Source: Deltaproteobacteria bacterium (GTDB lineage Bacteria > UBA10199 > JACPAL01 > JAHFST01). From it: a DNA stretch of 41,316 bases. The position numbers and the translations under genes are program-made. Shown in pieces: positions 2,277 through 35,346 of the stretch; positions within the stretch are counted from its first letter, which is position 1; each line of letters starts with the position of its first letter. The stretch spans positions 1 through 41,316 of the forward strand of contig JAHFST010000017.1 of assembly GCA_023265625.1 (NCBI GenBank), read 5' to 3'. The notes under the pieces were generated by a model. It was not told the DNA's origin. It did no database searches and saw only the letters and a program-made list of their open reading frames with translations.

Positions 2277-3245
2277 CTAATTCTTCCTCATTAAAAGTTT
2301 TGCGATCCCAGTCGTTGAAATGCCAAGTTGTCGAGCAGTCTCGGCAAGAGAAAGTCCATATTCCTGTACCATTTCAACTGCCAAACGAGACCTGACCGAC
2401 GAAATACATACACGACGACTACCAGCCTGCAATTCAATCATCGAGATCCCTGCTTTTTCGCAAGACATCTGAATATGTCTCGATGACTCTTTACTTTTTT
2501 GCCTCGCTTGAATCATCCTAGTAAATTTTTTGTCTGCCTCCTGTATGATTTGCTCCACGAATACACCACTTCCTAAGATCCGTTCATCGAATGCCTCAGT
2601 TTGTTTCCTTCTTCTCATGGAGAGGACTTCCGACCATCCACCTTGCGATCGAATCAATCCACCTCCTACCAATTCCGGGCGCCTTCCTTGGAAAATCGCT
2701 TCCTCAACGTATTTGTAATAGGCCTTTCTCGCGACAGCTTCCTTTTTGCCGAACCACGACAGAACATAATCTTGTTCTTGCCACTTATTTTCGAATTGAC
2801 CCATCAAAACACCATGGCCACACCATGGATAATTTGACAAAGAGGTGAGATTTTCCACCAAGTGGGCCCTGATGGGATTCAAATGGATATACCGAACCAG
2901 TTCCATAAAATAGGCATCTTCTTCACAAAGGATTGATTTATAGCGATTCTGAAATAGGTGGCCATGTCTCTGATGGCGGTGATTGTAAGTGATAGCATAA
3001 CCGGTCAGTAATCGTCGCATGTACTTTGAAAGCCCCTGAACCCCACTTCTCAATAGGATGTGAACATGGTTAGGCATGAGGGCCCAAGCATAGAGGGCCG
3101 TTTTCCCTTCTCGAGCAAGGTTTGCCATACGAGAGACAAACTCATTCCGATCATGGTCATCTTCAAAAATCTTTCGTTTTTCTATACCTCGAACAATGAC
3201 ATGATGAAGAGTCCCTGGTGTATCCAACCTGGCTTGTCGCGGCAT
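2277..3245 (-). CDS. REP-associated tyrosine transposase (IS200-like Y1 family)
   Basis: This 322-aa protein belongs to the Y1/HUH transposase-like RAYT family, single-strand DNA nickases that maintain REP repeats. The N-terminus MPRQARLDTPGTLHHVIVRG is diagnostic. The HUH pair is H60-V-H62 within LMPNHVHILLRS. The catalytic tyrosine is Y83 or Y87 in TGYAITYNHRHQRHGHLF. The last 55 residues form a helix-turn-helix (LSLAETARQLGISTTGIAKLL) like that of many deltaproteobacterial members, probably for DNA recognition. The ATG at 3245 is chosen over the upstream TTG (3260) because AAAGGA lies eight bases before it. All key residues are present, so the gene appears intact. Confidence 0.92.
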   Translation of the reverse strand: MPRQARLDTPGTLHHVIVRGIEKRKIFEDDHDRNEFVSRMANLAREGKTALYAWALMPNHVHILLRSGVQGLSKYMRRLLTGYAITYNHRHQRHGHLFQNRYKSILCEEDAYFMELVRYIHLNPIRAHLVENLTSLSNYPWCGHGVLMGQFENKWQEQDYVLSWFGKKEAVARKAYYKYVEEAIFQGRRPELVGGGLIRSQGGWSEVLSMRRRKQTEAFDERILGSGVFVEQIIQEADKKFTRMIQARQKSKESSRHIQMSCEKAGISMIELQAGSRRVCISSVRSRLAVEMVQEYGLSLAETARQLGISTTGIAKLLMRKN

Positions 3246-3277
3246 TGTGATTCCTTTCAAAAATATTTCTGAAAAAT

Positions 3278-3313
3278 AAGTTTATAAATTTAGCTGGTCA
3301 ACAACGTCCCCTA
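3278..3313 (-). repeat. REP-like repeat, copy 3 (right flank of RAYT gene)
   Basis: Read on the minus strand this is TAGGGGACGTTGTTGAC followed, after a somewhat longer spacer than in the other copies, by AAACTT. It mirrors copy 2 across the transposase gene and lies in its 5' leader, so transposase expression could be affected by the hairpin or by binding of the enzyme. Confidence 0.8.
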
Positions 3314-3379
3314 TAGGTGTCTTCGGCGATGTGCTTAGCTTGAGTTGCTAGGATTAAAAAAATAGCTTTTTTTAGAAAG

Positions 3380-3486
3380 TAGGGGACGTTGTTGACTGAA
3401 TAAACTTATTATTCATCATGATCCCCTAACGGCTTCATTCGGAAAAGAGGAAACTTACGTAAGTTGATCTAGTCAACAACGTCCCC
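3380..3486. repeat. Inverted pair of REP-like repeats
   Basis: A forward copy (3380-3407) and a reverse copy (3461-3486) of the GGGGACGTTGTTGACT core face each other across about 55-60 bases. The 16-base arms are perfectly complementary, as in bacterial interspersed mosaic elements. The pair lies in the 260-base gap between the RAYT leader and the EF-hand gene, which holds no other recognisable feature. Confidence 0.85.
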
Positions 3487-3575
3487 AAACTTCCATTGGG
3501 GTTCGCCACCTCTTCTACTTTTCGACAAAGAAATGTCATTGCCTCCTGGATGGGTGCGTTGGAGGGGAGGTTGGA

Positions 3576-12540: not shown

Positions 12541-12774
12541 ATGAGCGAATGGCAGGGACATATTGTTGCCGATCCAAAGATCCTGGTGGGAAAACCGGTT
12601 GTTAAGGGAACCCGGCTGGCGGTTGAATTGATTATCGATCTGTTGGCCCAGGGCTGGTCGGAAGAGCAAATTCTGAAAAATTATCCTGGTTTGACGCAGG
12701 AAGGTATTCAAGCTTGCCTAAGTTATGCTCGAGATACTCTCAAAGCTGAAAAAGTTTTTCTCCTGAACGTTTGA
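12541..12774 (+). CDS. DUF433 antitoxin-like protein
   Basis: This 77-aa protein has the full DUF433 signature: ILVGKPVVKGTRLAVELIIDLLAQGWSEEQILKNYPGLTQEGIQACLSYA, an N-terminal strand-turn (GKPVVKGTR) followed by a helix-turn-helix-like part. DUF433 proteins are usually paired with DUF5615 PIN-like proteins and are taken to be antitoxins and DNA-binding repressors. Here the DUF5615 gene follows after four bases. Shine-Dalgarno is weak (GGATGG about seven bases before the ATG). Confidence 0.88.
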   Translation: MSEWQGHIVADPKILVGKPVVKGTRLAVELIIDLLAQGWSEEQILKNYPGLTQEGIQACLSYARDTLKAEKVFLLNV

Positions 12775-12778
12775 CCCT

Positions 12779-13144
12779 ATGCGCCTTCTTGCCAATGAGA
12801 ATTTTCCCGAAGTGGCGGTTTCGGCGCTCCGGGAGCGTGGCCATGATGTTTTTTGGGTTCGAACCGAAGCCCCTGGCAGTGCGGATCGTGACATCCTGGA
12901 ACTTGCTCAAAGAGAAAAACGCATTTTGGTTACCTTTGACAAAGATTTTGGCGAACTTGCCTTTCGCTTCGGCCTTCCGGCATCCAGTGGGATTATCTTA
13001 TTTCGTATTTCTATGTCTTCTCCCGATTATGTCGCCCGGGTTGCGGTTGCCGCCTTAGACGGTCAAATCGAATGGGAGGATCATTTTGCCGTCATCGAAG
13101 AACATCAAATTCGCCTGACACGTCTGCCAAGAACCAAACATTAA
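12779..13144 (+). CDS. DUF5615 PIN-like toxin
   Basis: This 121-aa protein begins MRLLANENFPEVAVSALRERGHDV, the conserved DUF5615 start, and carries ILVTFDKDFGELAF (about residues 48-61) with the second acidic cluster. The fold is PIN-like, so a ribonuclease-type toxin paired with the upstream DUF433 protein is the usual interpretation. The first acidic position is N6-E7-N8 rather than the more common D-E-N, a variant I have seen in this family, so activity is plausible but not proven. It starts four bases after its antitoxin. Confidence 0.85.
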   Translation: MRLLANENFPEVAVSALRERGHDVFWVRTEAPGSADRDILELAQREKRILVTFDKDFGELAFRFGLPASSGIILFRISMSSPDYVARVAVAALDGQIEWEDHFAVIEEHQIRLTRLPRTKH

Positions 13145-13165: not shown

Positions 13166-15169
13166 CTACTTCACTCGCGCCCCAGAGGCCAGCGGCCGGT
13201 CCAGGGTGACGATGGAGAGGCCGGTTTCATGGCTAGCGGCCAGGAGCATGCCATTGGATTCCACGCCGCGGATCTTGGCGGGCTTGAGGTTGGCGACGAT
13301 GATGATGCTCTTGCCGACGATCTGTTCCGGCGTGTAGTGTTGCGCAATCCCCGCTACGATTTGGCGTCGTTCCTCGCCAATGGCCACCTGCAATTTGAGC
13401 AATTTATCGGCCCCCTCCACTTTTTCCGCCGCCACGACCTCCGCCACACGGAGTTGGACTTTGGCGAAGTCGCCGATGTCGATCAATTCAGTCGTTTCCA
13501 TTTGATTTCCTTTTTTTGTAGGGGCGTGATTCATCACGCCCTCCGTCTCAATCCTAGGAAACATCGGCTCCCCGATCTTCACGATCAATGGCGCCGGTGT
13601 CTCCCCCCAGGCAATATTTTTAAACGTCTGTGCCGCGATGGGTAATTTATTTTCCAAATCAAGCTGCTGCCAAATCCGCTCAGAGGTGGTTGGCAAGAAG
13701 GGGCGCACCAACAGGGCGATGTTTCGGATCGTGTCCGCCGCATGGTAGAGCACCGCCTCAATCGCCGCCCGATTCCCCTCTTTGAAAAGTTTCCAAGGGG
13801 CCGAGCTGTCGATGTATTTGTCCGTCGCGGCAATGACCTTCCAAATCTCCGCCAAGGCCGCATGAAAATTAATGTCGCCGGATTGGACCGGATCCAACGC
13901 CACGCGCACCCGGTCCAGCGTGGATTCCACGAGGCCTTTCAATTCCGTTTCCCGGTCCTGTAGGGGCAGCCCTATGTGGCTGCCCAGGCTGCCCGGGCGG
14001 CCACGCAGGGCCGCCCCTACGTCCAACGTCCCCCCCAAATATTTATTCACCATCCCCAACGTCCGATTCAACACATTCCCCAAATCATTCGCCAAATCGC
14101 TGTTGTACCGTTTAATAAAATTATCCCAGGTAAAATCCCCATCCGAACCAAAGCTGGACTCGCGGAGCAGGTAGTAGCGCAGGGCGTCCGCCCCATATTG
14201 CGGGATAACATCGAGCGGGGTGACGATGTTGCCGAGCGACTTGCTCATCTTCTCGCCTTTAAGAAAAACAAACCCATGCCCAAATACCGTCTTAGGCAAC
14301 GGCAACCCCGCACTCATCAACATGGCGGGCCAGATCACGCAGTGAAACCGGGTAATGTCCTTACCGATGATATGCATGTCGGCGGGCCACCATTTCTGTA
14401 GGGGCGATCCTTGTGATCGCCCCGGGGCGAATACAAGATTCGCCCCTACGTCATCCCCGTAACCAATCGCCGACAAATAATTAACCAACGCATCAAACCA
14501 CACATACACCACATGTTTCTTATCAATCGGGAGCGGGATCCCCCAGTCAAACGAGGAACGGGAGACGCTGATGTCCTGCAGACCGCTCTCCACGAGTCGC
14601 ACCACTTCGTTGCGCCGGATCTCCGGGAGGATGAACTCCGGATGTTGTTGGTAGTGGTTGAGCAATTTTTGTTGATAGGCGGAGAGTTTGAAAAAATAGT
14701 TGTCTTCCTTGAGCCACTTCGGCTTGCTCTTGTGATTGGGACAGACCCCATCGACTAGGTCCTTCTCGGTAAAAAAGGCCTCGCAGGACTCGCAGTACCA
14801 GCCTTCATACGGGGCCTGATAAATATCACCCTTGTCGTAAATCACCTGAAAGAGCTTGGTGACCCCTTGGTGGTGACGCGGCTCCGAGGTCTGGATGAAA
14901 TCGTCACAGGAGATCCCCATTTGCTGCCAGATCGCCAAAAACTTTTCCCGCATCTGGTCGCAATAGGCCTTGGGGGAGAGACCTTGCTGGATCGCCGCCT
15001 TTTGGACATTGACACTATGCTCGTCATTCCCCATCTGAAAATGAACCTCATGCCCGTCCATGCGCATAAACCGGGCCAGGGCATCCGCCCCGATCTTTTC
15101 ATAGGCCGTCCCGATGTGGGGGATGCTGTTGACGTAGTCGATGGCGGTGGTGATGTAGAATTTGGACAT
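13166..15169 (-). CDS. metG: Methionyl-tRNA synthetase
   Basis: This 667-aa enzyme charges tRNA-Met with methionine. The class I signatures are present: HIGT at residues 18-21 and KMSKS at 307-311. A zinc-binding knuckle lies at C126/C129 and C143/H146 (CPNH, as in several bacterial enzymes). An anticodon-binding helical domain follows (about 345-500). The C-terminal tRNA-binding (Trbp111/EMAP-like) domain starts near 563 (IDIGDFAKVQLRVAEV) and makes the enzyme dimeric in relatives. Three palindromic repeats are read through in frame: residues about 241-258, 384-404 and 544-552. All lie in surface loops or linkers, which explains why the gene survives. It is last in the tmk-holB-metG group, five bases after holB. 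Confidence 0.97.
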   Translation of the reverse strand: MSKFYITTAIDYVNSIPHIGTAYEKIGADALARFMRMDGHEVHFQMGNDEHSVNVQKAAIQQGLSPKAYCDQMREKFLAIWQQMGISCDDFIQTSEPRHHQGVTKLFQVIYDKGDIYQAPYEGWYCESCEAFFTEKDLVDGVCPNHKSKPKWLKEDNYFFKLSAYQQKLLNHYQQHPEFILPEIRRNEVVRLVESGLQDISVSRSSFDWGIPLPIDKKHVVYVWFDALVNYLSAIGYGDDVGANLVFAPGRSQGSPLQKWWPADMHIIGKDITRFHCVIWPAMLMSAGLPLPKTVFGHGFVFLKGEKMSKSLGNIVTPLDVIPQYGADALRYYLLRESSFGSDGDFTWDNFIKRYNSDLANDLGNVLNRTLGMVNKYLGGTLDVGAALRGRPGSLGSHIGLPLQDRETELKGLVESTLDRVRVALDPVQSGDINFHAALAEIWKVIAATDKYIDSSAPWKLFKEGNRAAIEAVLYHAADTIRNIALLVRPFLPTTSERIWQQLDLENKLPIAAQTFKNIAWGETPAPLIVKIGEPMFPRIETEGVMNHAPTKKGNQMETTELIDIGDFAKVQLRVAEVVAAEKVEGADKLLKLQVAIGEERRQIVAGIAQHYTPEQIVGKSIIIVANLKPAKIRGVESNGMLLAASHETGLSIVTLDRPLASGARVK
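13517..13541. repeat. TGTAGGGGC palindromic element inside metG (linker)
   Basis: A single hairpin, GGGCGTGA-ttca-TCACGCCC, preceded by TGTAG. It encodes about GVMNHAPT in MetRS, exactly in the linker between the catalytic body and the C-terminal tRNA-binding domain. It is read in a different frame from the other two copies in this gene. Confidence 0.85.
13959..14020. repeat. TGTAGGGGC composite element inside metG (anticodon domain loop)
   Basis: Two hairpins, GGGCAGCC-ctatgt-GGCTGCCC and GGGCGGCC-acgcag-GGCCGCCC, lie between terminal TGTAGGGGC and GCCCCTAC. The element is translated in frame as a 21-residue Gly/Pro-rich insert that begins VGAALRGRPG and ends GLPLQ, after YLGGTLD. Confidence 0.88.
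14397..14449. repeat. TGTAGGGGC composite element inside metG (catalytic domain loop)
   Basis: Two abutting hairpins, GGGCGATC-cttgt-GATCGCCC and GGGCGAAT-acaag-ATTCGCCC, lie between TGTAGGGGC and GCCCCTAC. It is translated in frame as VGANLVFAPGRSQGSPLQ between AIGYGDD and KWWPADMHIIG, where related synthetases have a short loop. The same hairpin pair, with a spacer, occurs at 35275-35346. Confidence 0.9.
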
Positions 15170-15174
15170 GGTTG

Positions 15175-16020
15175 TTACCCAGCTAATCCCATAAAGAGCC
15201 GTTCCAGGGCCAGCGTTTTTTGCACATTCGCCTCTAAGGCCCGTTCCGTTTCGTCGATCAACGCAAAATCAGAAAAGACTCGGTCCGGTGAACGGTTGGG
15301 AGCTACGGACCGGATTCGTTCCAGCTCGTGACGCAGCAACAACCCTTGCTCCGACCCAGTTGACTGATATGCCGCCAAGTCATGCCACCAGGCGCGCAAC
15401 CACTGCATCAAGGTCGGCAGCAGGGGCGCCTCACCGGCCCAGACCTCGGCTTGTTTGGACAGTGCTGCAAACGGGGTGGGGCTCAACAGGGCCGGTAACA
15501 ATTCATTTTGCCAACGCTCGAAGGCCTCCTGGTGATCTTCCGTCAGTTGCCACACGAGGGTGGGTGGGGCGAACAGGATTTTTTGACAGCGCGAACGGAT
15601 GGTGGGGAGGAGCAGGTCCGGCGCGCTGCTGAGTAAGATAAACAGCAAATAGGGTGGGGGTTCCTCCAAAATTTTCAATAGGGCATTGGCCCCGTTGGCC
15701 GTCATTTTTTCCGCCTCGGCGATGACGCAGACCATGCGATCCCCTTCCAGCGGACGAAACAAGACCCGGTGGGAGAGGTCGCGAATCTGTTCGATCTTGA
15801 GGGTGTTTTTTTCCGGGGCGATCCAGATCAAGTCAGGCGGATTTGGTTTGGTGGTTTTCAATAAGCGCTGGCTGAACGCCAGGGCCGTGGCCTGTTTCCC
15901 AGCCCCCTGGGGTCCGGCAAACAGATAGGCCGGAGGGAGGCGACCGGATTCGAGTACCCGATCAAGCAGGGCGCCGACGGCTGAACTGTTCCCAGGATTT
16001 TTGGATTCGTTTAAAGACAT
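15175..16020 (-). CDS. holB: DNA polymerase III delta-prime subunit
   Basis: This 281-aa AAA+ protein is the clamp-loader subunit delta-prime of the replicative polymerase. The pattern AYLFAGPQGAGKQATALAFS (about residues 31-50) is the P-loop, LIWIAPEKNTLKIEQIRDL follows, MVCVIAEAEKMTANGANALLKILEEPP (about 97-122) carries Walker B, sensor-type and conserved ALLKxLEEPP residues, and LLPTIRSRCQ (about 137-146) is the SRC motif. The ATG at 16020 is preferred; a TTG lies 24 bases upstream. The gene overlaps the 3' end of tmk by 59 bases and precedes metG by five, the common bacterial tmk-holB arrangement. Confidence 0.93.
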   Translation of the reverse strand: MSLNESKNPGNSSAVGALLDRVLESGRLPPAYLFAGPQGAGKQATALAFSQRLLKTTKPNPPDLIWIAPEKNTLKIEQIRDLSHRVLFRPLEGDRMVCVIAEAEKMTANGANALLKILEEPPPYLLFILLSSAPDLLLPTIRSRCQKILFAPPTLVWQLTEDHQEAFERWQNELLPALLSPTPFAALSKQAEVWAGEAPLLPTLMQWLRAWWHDLAAYQSTGSEQGLLLRHELERIRSVAPNRSPDRVFSDFALIDETERALEANVQKTLALERLFMGLAG

Positions 16021-16995: not shown

Positions 16996-17023
16996 AGGGC
17001 GGCCATGGTGGGCCGCCCCTACA
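16996..17023. repeat. TGTAGGGGC-family palindrome, single hairpin
   Basis: A hairpin GGGCGGCC-atggtg-GGCCGCCC with the GCCCCTACA end on the right and a decayed left end. It lies between the 75-aa gene and the Phd/RelE pair. It has no U-run, so it is not a typical rho-independent terminator, but it could still slow RNA decay. Confidence 0.75.
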
Positions 17024-17652: not shown

Positions 17653-17682
17653 GAGGGGCGGCCACGGTGGGCCGCCCCTACA
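17653..17682. repeat. TGTAGGGGC-family palindrome between relE and nrdJ
   Basis: A hairpin GGGGCGGCC-acggtg-GGCCGCCCC with a CTACAG right end and a degenerate left end (GGAG). It is closely similar in its hairpin to the copy at 16996-17023 and fills the gap between two convergent genes, where it may help end transcription from both sides. Confidence 0.75.
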
Positions 17683-22508: not shown

Positions 22509-22964
22509 TTGAAAATATCAGATCGTTTAACAGAACTCCAAATCACCCTCCCCGAGGTTCAGCCCGTGGGCAATTATCTTCCGGCGGTCAAGACGGGGAA
22601 TCTGGTCTTTATCTCCGGTCAACTCCCCAAGGTGGAGGGCAAGGTCGCGTTTCGCGGGCGGGTGGGCAAGGACGTCAATCTCGAGACGGCGCGCCGGGCG
22701 GCCCGGGCCTGTGTGATCAACGCCTTGGCGGTGTTGCAGCAGGAGTTGGGGCAACTGGATCGGATCAAGCAGATCGTGCGGGTGGGCGGTTTCATCAATA
22801 GCTACCCGGGATTCTACGATCAGGCCAAGGTGATGGATGGGGCCAGTGACTTGTTAGTGGAGATCTTCGGCGACCGAGGCCGGCATACCCGGGTGGCGGT
22901 GGGGGTGGTGGAACTGCCCTTGGGGGCGGCGGTGGAGATTGAGATGGTGGTGGAGGTGCGGTAG
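22509..22964 (+). CDS. RidA/YjgF-family deaminase
   Basis: This 151-aa protein belongs to the YjgF/YER057c/UK114 superfamily. These hydrolyse reactive enamine/imine intermediates of amino-acid metabolism, protecting PLP enzymes. The signature VFISGQLPKVEGK (about residues 33-45), the strand DRIKQIVRVGGFINS (about 81-95) and HTRVAVGVVELPLGAAVEIEMVV (about 125-147) match. It is of the somewhat longer RidA subfamily. The only start available is TTG at 22509, because a TAG in frame lies 12 bases upstream. Its Shine-Dalgarno sequence (AGGGG) and its stop (TAG at 22962-22964) both come from TGTAGGGGC element ends. Confidence 0.88.
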   Translation: MKISDRLTELQITLPEVQPVGNYLPAVKTGNLVFISGQLPKVEGKVAFRGRVGKDVNLETARRAARACVINALAVLQQELGQLDRIKQIVRVGGFINSYPGFYDQAKVMDGASDLLVEIFGDRGRHTRVAVGVVELPLGAAVEIEMVVEVR

Positions 22965-23034
22965 GGGCGCACCCATGTGTGCGCCCTCATCCCGGTGGCC
23001 GCGATTGGGGCAGACACATGGGTCTGCCCCTACA
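22961..23034. repeat. TGTAGGGGC composite element between convergent ridA and response regulator
   Basis: Two hairpins, GGCGCAC-ccatgt-GTGCGCC and GGGCAGAC-acatg-GGTCTGCCC, are separated by a spacer TCATCCCGGTGG... and bounded by GTAGGGGC and GCCCCTACA. The TAG of the left end is the ridA stop, and the TAG of the right end, on the other strand, is the response-regulator stop. The layout (hairpin, TCATC-type spacer, hairpin) repeats that at 35275-35346 with different hairpin words. Confidence 0.9.
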
Positions 23035-25576: not shown

Positions 25577-25662
25577 TTCCCCCTCCTTACAAAGGAGGGG
25601 GCAGGGGGAGGTCACTCGCCGCGGGACCTCTCCCTAACCCTCTCCTTTGTAAGGAGAGGGGA
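25577..25662. repeat. CCTCTCC/GGAGAGG palindromic repeat (second family)
   Basis: A long imperfect palindrome. CCCCTCCTTACAAAGGAGGGG is a hairpin on the left and CCCTCTCCTTTGTAAGGAGAGGG one on the right, joined by a GGGGGAGGTC/GACCTCTCCC pair. A related shorter copy lies at 35861-35893. It is distinct from both the REP-like and TGTAGGGGC families. Confidence 0.75.
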
Positions 25663-26134: not shown

Positions 26135-26164
26135 TGTAGGGGTTCAAAATTTTGAACCCCTACA
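26135..26164. repeat. Perfect TGTAGGGG palindrome (30 bases)
   Basis: TGTAGGGGTTCAAAA and its exact reverse complement make a perfect 30-base palindrome with no loop. A nearly identical 29-base copy lies at 33233-33261. It fills the gap between the convergent Phd region and the Omp85 gene. Confidence 0.92.
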
Positions 26165-31821: not shown

Positions 31822-33245
31822 GGATTGGGTTGTAGGGCACTCACCATCTTAGGATAGATCCCGCCAAAGCTGCCGTTGGACATCAGACAAATGACATCTT
31901 TGCCCCGCGACTCCTGAGCGACGATATGGACCATATCATCGATGGAGGTTCCGATCCGGGCGCTTTTCCCCTTGGCGACTAAATCAGTCACTAATTTAGT
32001 GGGATCCAGCCTTTCTTCGGTGGGGATTTTATCGGGGCGGAAGACCGGGGCGAGCAGGACTTCGTCGGCCAGGTCAAAGGCCCGGGCCAGTTCCTCCTGA
32101 AAAAAATTGCGCCGCGTGGTGTTGGAGCGCGGCTCAAACAGCGCCCAGAGCCGCCCTTCCGGATAAGCGGCCCGCACCGCTGAGAGGGTTTCACGGATGG
32201 CGGTGGGATGATGCGCAAAATCTTCGATCAGGATGCGATCCCCTGCCTCCAAGAGGATCTCTTGGCGTCTTTTGATCCCTTGAAACTCCGCGAGGGACTT
32301 GTTGATCTCCGCGAGTGGGATGCCCAAATCGAGTAGCACGGCAATGACGTTACAGAGATTTTGTGTATTGTGTCGCCCCATCATGGGAGAGGTCACCCTT
32401 CCCAGATTTTTCCCGCGCATCAGGAGATCAAAAGAAACCCCTCGTTTGAGATCCACCTGAGTGGGTTGCAGATCGGCCTCCGGATGAAACCCCACCCGGA
32501 TCAAGCGACACGGAGGTTGGCGACACAATTGGCGCACATTTTCCGAATCCCAATTGGCCACCAGCAATCCGTCCTTGGGGAGCAAGGTCAATAATTTTTC
32601 AAAGGCCGATAGCACGTGGGCCAGGTCCCGGTAAATATCGGCATGGTCAAATTCCACGGGATTTAGGATCAAGATTTTTGGCCGGTAGTGGAGAAATTTT
32701 GGGCCCTTATCGAAGTAGGCCGAGTCGTATTCATCCCCTTCGATGACAAAGTAATCCCCTGAGCCAAGTTGATAGGACCGCCCAAAATTTTTCAGCACCC
32801 CGCCAATAAAAAAACCCGGTGACTGCCCGGTCCGTTCCAAAATCCACGCGGCAATGCTGCATGTGGTGGTCTTGCCATGGGTGCCAGCAATGACGATCGG
32901 GTAACGTTCCACTAATATCTCCCCCAAGGCCTGGGGCAAAGACCGATAGGGCAGGCCGCGGCGCATCACCTCCAGCACCTCCGGATTGTCGCGTGAGACG
33001 GCGTTGCCAATGATCACCAGGTCAGGGTTGTCGATATTGGCCGCGTTCCACCCCTTCTTAACCTCAATCCCCAAGGCCGCCAACTGATCGCTCATTGGGG
33101 GATAGACCTCGAGGTCGGAACCGGTGACGGTAAAACCTTGCTCCTTTAGCAGCCCCGCCAACGAACCCATCCCAGTGCCGCCGATGGCGATGAGGTAGGC
33201 TGTTTTTTTCGTTTTTGTAGTCACGGTTTTTATGTAGGGGTTCAA
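31818..33245 (-). CDS. mpl: UDP-N-acetylmuramate:tripeptide ligase Mpl
   Basis: This 475-aa Mur-ligase homologue attaches recycled L-Ala-gamma-D-Glu-meso-DAP to UDP-MurNAc, returning cell-wall peptides to peptidoglycan synthesis. An N-terminal nucleotide fold AIGGTGMGSLAGLLK (about residues 20-34) is followed by the ATP loop VIAGTHGKTTTCSIAAWI (about 117-134) and FVIEGDEYDSAYFDKGPKF, the Mpl/MurC signature (about 162-180), then DFAHHPTAIRETL (about 330-342). Two starts are possible: TTG at 33245, inside a palindromic element whose AGGGG lies nine bases upstream, and GTG at 33224 with no Shine-Dalgarno. It is coupled to tamB by ATGA and begins 13 bases after the hydrolase stop. Confidence 0.92.
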   Translation of the reverse strand: MNPYIKTVTTKTKKTAYLIAIGGTGMGSLAGLLKEQGFTVTGSDLEVYPPMSDQLAALGIEVKKGWNAANIDNPDLVIIGNAVSRDNPEVLEVMRRGLPYRSLPQALGEILVERYPIVIAGTHGKTTTCSIAAWILERTGQSPGFFIGGVLKNFGRSYQLGSGDYFVIEGDEYDSAYFDKGPKFLHYRPKILILNPVEFDHADIYRDLAHVLSAFEKLLTLLPKDGLLVANWDSENVRQLCRQPPCRLIRVGFHPEADLQPTQVDLKRGVSFDLLMRGKNLGRVTSPMMGRHNTQNLCNVIAVLLDLGIPLAEINKSLAEFQGIKRRQEILLEAGDRILIEDFAHHPTAIRETLSAVRAAYPEGRLWALFEPRSNTTRRNFFQEELARAFDLADEVLLAPVFRPDKIPTEERLDPTKLVTDLVAKGKSARIGTSIDDMVHIVAQESRGKDVICLMSNGSFGGIYPKMVSALQPNP

Positions 33246-33261
33246 AATTTTGAACCCCTAC
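33233..33261. repeat. TGTAGGGG palindrome at hydrolase/mpl junction
   Basis: A 29-base perfect palindrome nearly identical to that at 26135-26164. On the minus strand its TAG (33260-33258) is the serine-hydrolase stop, its AGGGG could serve as the mpl ribosome binding site and its TTG (33245-33243) as the mpl start. Confidence 0.92.
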
Positions 33262-34307
33262 CTCCGAATGATTTCTTCATAAAGCACGTCATACAACTTC
33301 GGCCGCCAGGTCTTGATGAGTTCGTTTTCGGCGGAGGGGTGGACTCGGTTGGTGAGTAGGATGATCCAGTACTGATCCTCCGGGTTGATCCAGAAGGAAC
33401 AGCCCGAATAACCCAAATGCCCGATGCCATTTTTGGTAAAATATTGTCCCGCCTGGGAGTTTTGGAAGGCGGGCGTGTCCCAACCCAGTTTGAATCGGAC
33501 GCGGGGGCCGATAAATTCCAACAGGGGTTCTTGCGTAAAGAGGGTGCTCTTGCCCTGATACCCAAAGACAATTTCCCGGCAAAAGCGGTGGATATCATCG
33601 ACGGTGGAAAAAAGCCCGGCGTGACCGGCAACCCCACCCAAGGTGTAGGCGTTATCATCATGCACCTCACCCTGGAGCAATCGCTTTCTCCAAGAGGAAA
33701 ATTCCGTGGGGGCAAATCGAGTGGGATCGGTGGGAGGGCTGGTCTGGTAACCCGTTTGGGACATTTCCAGCGGCCCGGTGATTTTTTCCTGCAGGAGTTG
33801 GTCGAGCGGCTTGTGAAAAAAGTCCTCGAGCAGAATGCCCAACAAAATGAAGCCTAAGTCGCTGTATATTTTTTGATAAGCGATGGGGAGTTCCAAGGTC
33901 TCGCGAGAAATTTTTTGCAGGTAGAGCGAACGGCTCTCCCGCTTGCCCACCAACTCCGGTTGGTCTTTCTCAATGTCTTGAAAGAAGGGGCGCCAGGCGG
34001 GAAGTCCCGAGGTGTGTTTGAGCAAATGACGCAGCGAGATCTTGTATTTGTCTTCTTCAATCTCAGGCAAGAAATCGATCAGGTGGGTGTCGAGATTTAC
34101 GATGCCCTCTTGTTTGGCTAGCAAGAGCAGGGTCGTGGGAACAATCGGTTTGGTGAGGGAGGCGATATCGAACAGTGTTTGCTCGGCCACCGGGCCGAAA
34201 AAATTACGGTACAACACCTCTCCCTGTGAGGCGACCAACACAGCGGCGGCTGGGAAGGCCTTCTCTTCCAAGGCTTGGGCAAAGGTCTCTGCGATGCGGT
34301 TGGTCAT
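33258..34307 (-). CDS. Beta-lactamase-like serine hydrolase (penicillin-binding-protein fold)
   Basis: This 349-aa protein of the class C beta-lactamase/DD-peptidase superfamily has the catalytic SxxK at S50-L-T-K53 (FDIASLTKPI), the YxN-type tyrosine motif Y148-S-D150 (KIYSDLGFILLG) and an HxG-like motif (HLGYSG, near residue 305) in the usual order. No signal peptide is evident, so it may work in the cytoplasm or be exported otherwise. Its place between ldcA and mpl suggests a murein-peptide or beta-lactam-related hydrolase, which is inference. It overlaps ldcA by ATGA. Its stop is the TAG of a palindromic element. Confidence 0.9.
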   Translation of the reverse strand: MTNRIAETFAQALEEKAFPAAAVLVASQGEVLYRNFFGPVAEQTLFDIASLTKPIVPTTLLLLAKQEGIVNLDTHLIDFLPEIEEDKYKISLRHLLKHTSGLPAWRPFFQDIEKDQPELVGKRESRSLYLQKISRETLELPIAYQKIYSDLGFILLGILLEDFFHKPLDQLLQEKITGPLEMSQTGYQTSPPTDPTRFAPTEFSSWRKRLLQGEVHDDNAYTLGGVAGHAGLFSTVDDIHRFCREIVFGYQGKSTLFTQEPLLEFIGPRVRFKLGWDTPAFQNSQAGQYFTKNGIGHLGYSGCSFWINPEDQYWIILLTNRVHPSAENELIKTWRPKLYDVLYEEIIRR

Positions 34308-35233
34308 GAAAAAATCCCCTTTTCGATAATGAGTTGATGTCCTTCAATCCTGGCGGGTAGCCCGATGGGGACGATGAGGGGATCGGGGCAATGTCCAAAA
34401 CGGACTCCCCATAAAACCGGTCCCGGAAAATCCTTGAGACACTCTTGCACCACATTTTTAATCTTGGCTGGAAACAGTTTGTTTTTGAGGAGAAACGTCC
34501 CCAAGACGATCCCCCGAACCTGCTTTAATTTTCCGGCCTGTTTGAGTTGAGTCAACATCCGATCCACCGCATAAGGCTCTTCCTGGGTGTCCTCGAGAAA
34601 GAGAATCTTGTGGACTGTGTCGCACTCAAAAGGGGTTCCTAGGGTGGAGATGATGAGGGACAGACACCCCCCCACCAGGATGCCGCGGGTGGGGGCGTAT
34701 GGCAATACGCCCCTACAGCCCAGGATTTCCCGGGCGGTTAATTTTTGGCGCTGAAAATAATCCGGCTCGGTGAGGGCCCGTGCCAGCCGCTTGCTGTTGA
34801 TTGGGTTGCCCAGATGGGGGGCCACCAGCGGACCGTAGAGGCTGGGCAGGGAGTGTTGTTGCCAAAGATAATTGAGTAAAACCGTGAGATCACTCAGACC
34901 GACGACAACCTTGGGGCTGATGCGGTGCCCATTTAAGGTGGGCAATAAACGCTGTGTGCCGTAGCCCCCACGGGCGAACAGTAAGGCCTTCGCCGTTTTG
35001 TCTTGCAAGGCCTCGGTGAGTTCCGTGAGCCGCCGCCGGTCCGACCCGGCCAAGTAGGGGCGATCCTTGTGATCGCCCAGAGTTTGGGTGGCAAAGATGT
35101 CGGGTCGAAATTTTATCTTGAAACCCTGCTGTTGTAATTGTCGAACCCCCTTGCGAAACGGCCCCGGTCGAAAGGGTCCCGCCGGAGCGGCCACACGGAT
35201 CAAATCGCCTTTATTTAATGGGGTTAACCTCAC
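34304..35233 (-). CDS. LD-carboxypeptidase (peptidase family S66)
   Basis: This 309-aa enzyme removes the terminal D-Ala from recycled muropeptides, giving the tripeptide that Mpl uses. The catalytic Ser114 lies in VVGLSDLTVLL, with E214 in KILFLEDTQEEPYAVDRML and H281 in GVRFGHCPDPL; ARGGYGTQRLLP (about residues 88-98) is the other conserved block. The start is GTG at 35233 with no clear Shine-Dalgarno. Two palindromic elements are translated in frame, at about residues 52-60 (LGDHKDRPY) and 172-182 (GCRGVLPYAPT), where relatives have shorter loops. It is the first gene of the ldcA-hydrolase-mpl-tamB-Omp85 group. Confidence 0.93.
   Translation of the reverse strand: MRLTPLNKGDLIRVAAPAGPFRPGPFRKGVRQLQQQGFKIKFRPDIFATQTLGDHKDRPYLAGSDRRRLTELTEALQDKTAKALLFARGGYGTQRLLPTLNGHRISPKVVVGLSDLTVLLNYLWQQHSLPSLYGPLVAPHLGNPINSKRLARALTEPDYFQRQKLTAREILGCRGVLPYAPTRGILVGGCLSLIISTLGTPFECDTVHKILFLEDTQEEPYAVDRMLTQLKQAGKLKQVRGIVLGTFLLKNKLFPAKIKNVVQECLKDFPGPVLWGVRFGHCPDPLIVPIGLPARIEGHQLIIEKGIFS
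34689..34717. repeat. TGTAGGGGC-family palindrome inside ldcA, copy 1
   Basis: A hairpin GGGGCGTAT-ggca-ATACGCCCC with a CCCCTACA end and a diverged GTGGGGGC end. It is translated as part of GCRGVLPYAPTRG before the conserved ILVGGCLSL block of LD-carboxypeptidase. Confidence 0.85.
35055..35079. repeat. TGTAGGGGC-family palindrome inside ldcA, copy 2
   Basis: A hairpin GGGCGATC-cttgt-GATCGCCC with one GTAGGGGC end. It is translated as LGDHKDRPY just before the conserved LAGSD of LD-carboxypeptidase. The hairpin word is identical to the first hairpins at 14397-14449 and 35275-35346. Confidence 0.85.
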
Positions 35234-35274
35234 GTTGGGAGGTTATAAATTATTTGTGTGGGGATAGCAAGGCG

Positions 35275-35346
35275 TGTAGGGGCGATCCTTGTGATCGCCC
35301 TCATCGGGATGACCGGGGTTGGGGCGAATACAAGATTCGCCCCTAC
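35275..35346. repeat. TGTAGGGGC composite element between CBS gene and ldcA
   Basis: Two hairpins, GGGCGATC-cttgt-GATCGCCC and GGGCGAAT-acaag-ATTCGCCC, are separated by the spacer TCATCGGGATGACCGGGGTT and bounded by TGTAGGGGC and GCCCCTAC. Its right end supplies the TAG stop of the zinc-ribbon CBS gene. It is the fullest copy and shares its hairpins with the element inside metG. Confidence 0.92.

Follow-up and report, generated by a model that had tools for sequence, protein, structure and literature searches.

The methionyl-tRNA synthetase gene (metG) of this Deltaproteobacteria bacterium carries three palindromic repeats within its reading frame. These are GTAG-tagged REP/REPIN elements: two REPIN-like inverted pairs and one single unit. 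At the level of sequence, the three segments are a genuine and well-supported example of REPs incorporated into a protein-coding frame; they are presumably translated in the cell, and the effect of the encoded peptides is probably near-neutral. In-frame intragenic GTAG REPs are an already known phenomenon; the less ordinary parts here are the intensity with which they occur, the loops they share across genomes, and a near-constant loss of native residues. We consider it highly likely that these repeats are REPs that a RAYT (REP-associated tyrosine transposase) probably mobilized and that selection has filtered to frame-preserving copies in tolerant loops. Under this explanation, GTAG REPs would have arrived in metG in independent events, most likely as single-stranded hairpins moved by RAYT. 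Copies that broke the frame or struck structured parts of a needed protein would have been lost, and frame-keeping copies with a stop-free frame in a flexible loop would have persisted, read as part of the enzyme.

The metG repeats and the modeled synthetase

The window (the whole stretch of DNA analyzed, 41,316 nt) encodes an intact 667-residue MetRS, identified as such by both Pfam and NCBIfam. The gene and its repeats are as follows:

13166..15169, minus strand: metG, methionyl-tRNA synthetase, 667 aa, frame intact, three REP insertions
14397..14450, unstranded: GTAG REP inverted pair in metG (insert 1), 52 nt from GTAG to CTAC, coding for residues 241-258, VGANLVFAPGRSQGSPLQ
13959..14021, unstranded: GTAG REP inverted pair in metG (insert 2), 61 nt from GTAG to CTAC, coding for residues 384-404, VGAALRGRPGSLGSHIGLPLQ
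13517..13541, plus strand: single GTAG REP unit in metG (insert 3), in the linker that precedes the tRNA-binding domain, coding for EGVMNHAPT, residues about 543-552

An earlier note, made from the letters of the window, had described three palindromic repeats that leave the metG frame open, two of them sharing one reading frame and the third using another. All of this is borne out: the repeats lie at these positions in an open frame of 667 residues, and the translations of inserts 1 and 2 both run VGA...PLQ, while insert 3 is read in the other open frame, ending in ...APT. Two small ORFs adjoin metG at 12541-13144 and by eye resemble a DUF433/DUF5615-type pair.

The note had also placed all three repeats at loops or linkers where relatives are short, and had proposed an alignment of MetRS relatives and a structure model. 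In the alignment, inserts 1 and 2 are missing from all 29 relatives. Between invariant anchors, the distance across insert 1 is 24 residues (mode 11 in relatives) and that across insert 2 is 62 residues (median 45 in relatives). The placement therefore stands for these two; for insert 3 it does not, since the linker before the tRNA-binding domain, at 27 residues, falls within the 25-70 of the relatives, and net lengthening is not demonstrable there. None of the genomes searched yielded a relative closer than another family, nor, accordingly, an exact empty site or an age for the inserts. In loop 1 of two relatives, each from a different other family (L010 and L011), the MetRS gene carries in-frame tandem 8-bp repeats, AAAAATCA and AAAAAGCA.

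An AlphaFold model of the enzyme, built from 30 sequences (this one and its 29 relatives), has a mean pLDDT of 84 and a TM-score of 0.90, normalized by target, against a solved MetRS. Segments with pLDDT below 50 comprise residues 241-252, 309-313 (the KMSKS loop), 390-392, 396-398, and 544-568; the KMSKS loop aside, all of them fall in or overlap the three repeat-coded stretches. The model thus predicts that the MetRS fold is kept and that the repeat-coded stretches form low-confidence loops, though with a 30-sequence alignment the low pLDDT may also stem from the inserts having no homologues.

The genome is a 2.93 Mb draft in 37 contigs, a state in which assembly error, or a pseudogene, might produce such an arrangement. 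This is extremely unlikely: the metG frame is unbroken and its product aligns with relatives from end to end, the elements are short and mutually different, and the arrangement recurs in many genes both here and in a related genome (G001).

Identity of the repeats and candidate transposases

All three metG elements begin with the GTAG tag, which marks the family genome-wide (the search patterns required it). The repeat architecture consists of an unpaired GTAG and a stem starting GGGC, with head-to-head pairing common. A perfect stem of at least 6 bp, the minimum set by the search, is present in 160 half-elements, within the approximately 5-13 bp stem with short loop that defines the superfamily. 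Head-to-head pairs make up 57 of 95 element groups, and 15 of the 57 are intragenic. Two of the metG sites have this inverted-pair (REPIN) structure and may, judging from their sequence, represent mobile units.

Members of the GTAG REP superfamily have been reported in frame within genes, including those for tRNA synthetases, with uvrA genes hit twice, and are able to supply TAG stop codons (Di Nocera, De Gregorio and Rocco 2013, PMC3733652). The elements described here share with those the GTAG tag, a short GC-rich stem, a small loop, head-to-head pairs, TAG stops, and in-frame copies in enzymes. They differ in belonging to another lineage (the text of that study makes no mention of Nitrospirae-type or other uncultured groups), in occupying three sites in one gene, in the roughly one third of surveyed elements that lie in coding frames, and in the reuse of loops across related genomes and the measured loss of native residues. 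REPINs are inverted REP pairs with a spacer, foldable into one hairpin and tied to RAYT (Bertels and Rainey 2011, PMC3116915); the pairs described here are alike in spacer, predicted folding, and RAYT link. In P. fluorescens SBW25, however, just 14 of 1,067 REP 16-mers overlap genes (PMC3116915), in contrast with the 34 of 95 elements found in frame in ORFs here.

The earlier note had likened the metG repeats to Rickettsia palindromic elements with a different end sequence. The likeness holds for how they work: as with RPE-4 and RPE-6, which form in-frame coding insertions (PMC3733652), the 34 in-frame palindromes here, those in metG lying at loops and a linker, would be read as peptide. It does not hold for kind, since RPE-4 and RPE-6 are CGTC-superfamily repeats, which have no associated transposase (PMC3733652). 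Their tags are CGTC or TGTC/CCTC, whereas the tag here is GTAG and RAYT-type genes with GTAG repeats are present. Although both kinds insert in frame within coding sequence, the metG repeats have a vanishingly small likelihood of belonging to the CGTC family.

Ten Y1-transposase matches are present in the genome. Among them are two RAYT-like genes, L069 and L070, whose 3' ends carry GTAG REPs; their matches are to Y1_Tnp or, below cut-off, to the NCBI REP-associated transposase model, and the sub-threshold match of L070 to the NCBI model is split in two. By sequence, both genes are compatible with RAYT mobilization of the REPs, and the REPs were probably moved by a transposase of this type. 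L070 (G000:C36, near 14149) itself contains an in-frame internal REP pair and a REP overlapping its stop codon. A gene in the window, at 2277-3260, encodes a transposase of the Y1/RAYT type that has a C-terminus resembling sigma-70 region 4 and is flanked by an inverted repeat family of its own, GGGGACGTTGTTGACTAG. As a candidate for the cognate enzyme it was rejected, its inverted repeats (AATAGGGGACGTTGTTGACTAG) differing from metG-type REPs. Their positions are:

Near 121-157, 2243-2279, 3284-3314, 3375-3411, and 3460-3494: inverted repeats of the 2277-3260 transposase, unlike GTAGGGGC REPs

In-frame repeats across the genome

The window contains 22 copies of GTAGGGG where 3.6 are expected, an approximately six-fold excess that none of 100 shuffles reached. 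Besides those in metG, the following elements occur in it:

34307..35242, minus strand: ORF for an S66 LD-carboxypeptidase, containing two REP units in frame
34693..34716, minus strand: REP unit in the S66 ORF, coding for CRGVLPYAP
35054..35078, plus strand: REP unit in the S66 ORF, coding for LGDHKDRPY
22961..23033, unstranded: intergenic REP inverted pair, 73 nt
35276..35346, unstranded: intergenic REP inverted pair, 71 nt, sharing both hairpins with the 14397 pair
26136..26163, unstranded: GTAG-family perfect palindrome of 28 nt, intergenic
33234..33261, unstranded: GTAG-family perfect palindrome of 28 nt, located where a gene ends
16997..17022, minus strand: single intergenic REP unit
17656..17681, minus strand: single intergenic REP unit

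One of the two units in the S66 ORF directly precedes the conserved YLAGSD motif.

Genome-wide, two disjoint patterns recovered 185 and 47 half-elements (about 230); reversed control patterns gave no matches in the same genome. The count of copies in coding frames, which the earlier note had also proposed, was made in the surroundings of pattern matches up to contig C25 (about 1.57 Mb, or about 54% of the genome), and its figures are lower bounds for elements starting TGTAGGGGC. In this survey, the 160 half-elements grouped into 95 elements, of which 34 lie in frame in 26 ORFs; a codon model derived from these loci gave coding signal to either side of each of the 34, and an open frame was part of the definition of an in-frame call. 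Family searches matched 25 of the 26 ORFs to known families. Apart from metG with its three REPs, two each are carried by mutY, folC, bioA, mutL, one biotin carboxylase, and the S66 carboxypeptidase. ORFs with one REP are acs, a glycosyltransferase, dusB, a phosphodiesterase, prmC, an M15-type peptidase, phosphoglucosamine mutase, an ABC ATPase, moeA, ligA, a second biotin carboxylase, two TPR-glycosyltransferases, rsmA, trpE/pabB, a MaoC hydratase, rdgB, and metH. Although REPs are named for lying outside genes, about one third of the surveyed copies appear here to be read as protein. Probable mobile DNA would thus have been taken into flexible loops of seemingly working proteins in metG and at least 25 other genes, making the genome a natural insertion experiment that shows where essential enzymes tolerate added residues in their loops.

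Seven ORFs have two or more REPs, as compared with 0.6 expected under random placement of 36 insertions (slightly above the observed number) over an assumed 1400 genes. Under the same placement, the probability of any gene receiving three is approximately 0.009, in keeping with the earlier view that three in one gene is unusual.

Nine of 10 intragenic pairs have lengths of 1 mod 3, compared with 13 of 31 elsewhere (p = 0.011, fixed 28-mers excluded), a bias independent of the open-frame definition. This bears on whether the segments enter the protein at all. Palindromes can fold in mRNA, and bypassing elements within genes exist elsewhere, so that RNA-level removal or ribosome bypassing might spare the protein; neither, however, would need stop-free frames or frame-keeping lengths. 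Every intragenic copy is open (by definition, leaving the length bias as the independent argument), and removal or bypassing is accordingly very improbable.

Thirteen elements have flanks in different frames and were considered as candidate gene disruptions. All proved to be gene ends, with the REP contributing its TAG as the stop codon of the upstream gene; these genes resemble, for example, purQ, folD, bioA, atpG, and lysS. The survey therefore revealed no clear disruption of a gene by a REP, although decayed pseudogenes may have escaped it.

Reused loops and loss of native residues

The GTAG repeat is present in 26 of the 60 genomes searched, this one counted, including all five others of the same order; the same in-frame behavior of REPs has been described in other phyla, which counts in favor of selection having filtered mobile REPs. 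Of 25 elements in G001, eight were assigned to gene interiors, with at least two of these assignments doubtful: L176 and L188, antisense or weak by appearance, were set aside.

Certain loops are occupied repeatedly. Ahead of RGHAIECRI in biotin carboxylase lies a loop in which two paralogues from this genome carry different 28-bp REPs, G003 has a REP pair at the same position, and G005, G002, and G004 have other palindromic sequence; the loop in G001 contains no palindrome. A single MoeA loop likewise holds different REPs in this genome and in G001. Some of these shared-loop REPs may conceivably descend from a common ancestor and have changed stem since. A further palindrome type in the window, inverted repeats at 25579-25601 and 25638-25660 (CCCCCTCC...GGAGGGGG), is similar in style to the palindrome in the AccC loop of G005.

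The re-hitting of the same loops in related genomes, together with multiple insertions per gene above random placement, might indicate that the repeats are kept for a function, with the mRNA hairpin or the peptide under selection (for example, through translational pausing at a domain boundary). Loop tolerance accounts equally well for the recurrence, however, and the elements occupy many unrelated genes with many different hairpins, while MetRS inserts 1 and 2 are absent from relatives; retention for function is improbable.

Across 13 sites, the gain in protein length averages 5.1 residues below the coding length of the element (sd 1.2, slope 0.92, r 0.97). Element length was taken from GTAG to CTAC plus two bases, and with degenerate ends at some sites single values are uncertain by about one residue. 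Because the gain falls short by about five residues, native sequence has apparently been replaced at REP sites, as far as can be read from these comparisons. The loss is real in AccC and MoeA, since the native loop length there is almost constant (17 and 14, respectively); in MoeA, the native xG.PL of relatives is occupied here by REP-coded VG...PL.

The loss might reflect trimming by selection or a mechanism of replacement. Plain insertion of the IS200/IS605 type does not predict a shortfall of about five residues, which counts against filtered insertion as the whole account. In its place, the arrival of a REP could have removed about 15 nt, or native sequence with REP-like tips could have been converted into a REP where it stood. 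The uniform shortfall, the nearly fixed AccC and MoeA lengths, and the coincidence of VG...PL with xG.PL all speak for such replacement; yet later trimming could produce an equal shortfall, the fetched loci yielded no convincing candidate for a short precursor palindrome, and native lengths at several sites were taken from distant homologues. We regard replacement as possible, if on the unlikely side. A broader version, in which certain loops throughout the order are repeated landing sites for unrelated palindromes, each arrival replacing a near-constant 15 nt or so instead of purely inserting, is a rather doubtful proposition; if true, REPs would spread by replacement and would be a steady supply of new loops in essential enzymes. 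Filtering of mobile REPs by selection remains our preferred reading, and the reuse of the AccC and MoeA loops, with the near-constant native loss of about five residues, turns the mechanism of REP insertion, so far unsettled, into something that closely related strains could test directly.

A glycosyltransferase ORF (L157, G000:C21, approximately 15600-15780) contains, beside its REP, a second and unrelated in-frame repeat-like stretch, CHPEPKAKDL...RSFTDVQDDK; its paralogue L158 has a REP of different stem at the same site.
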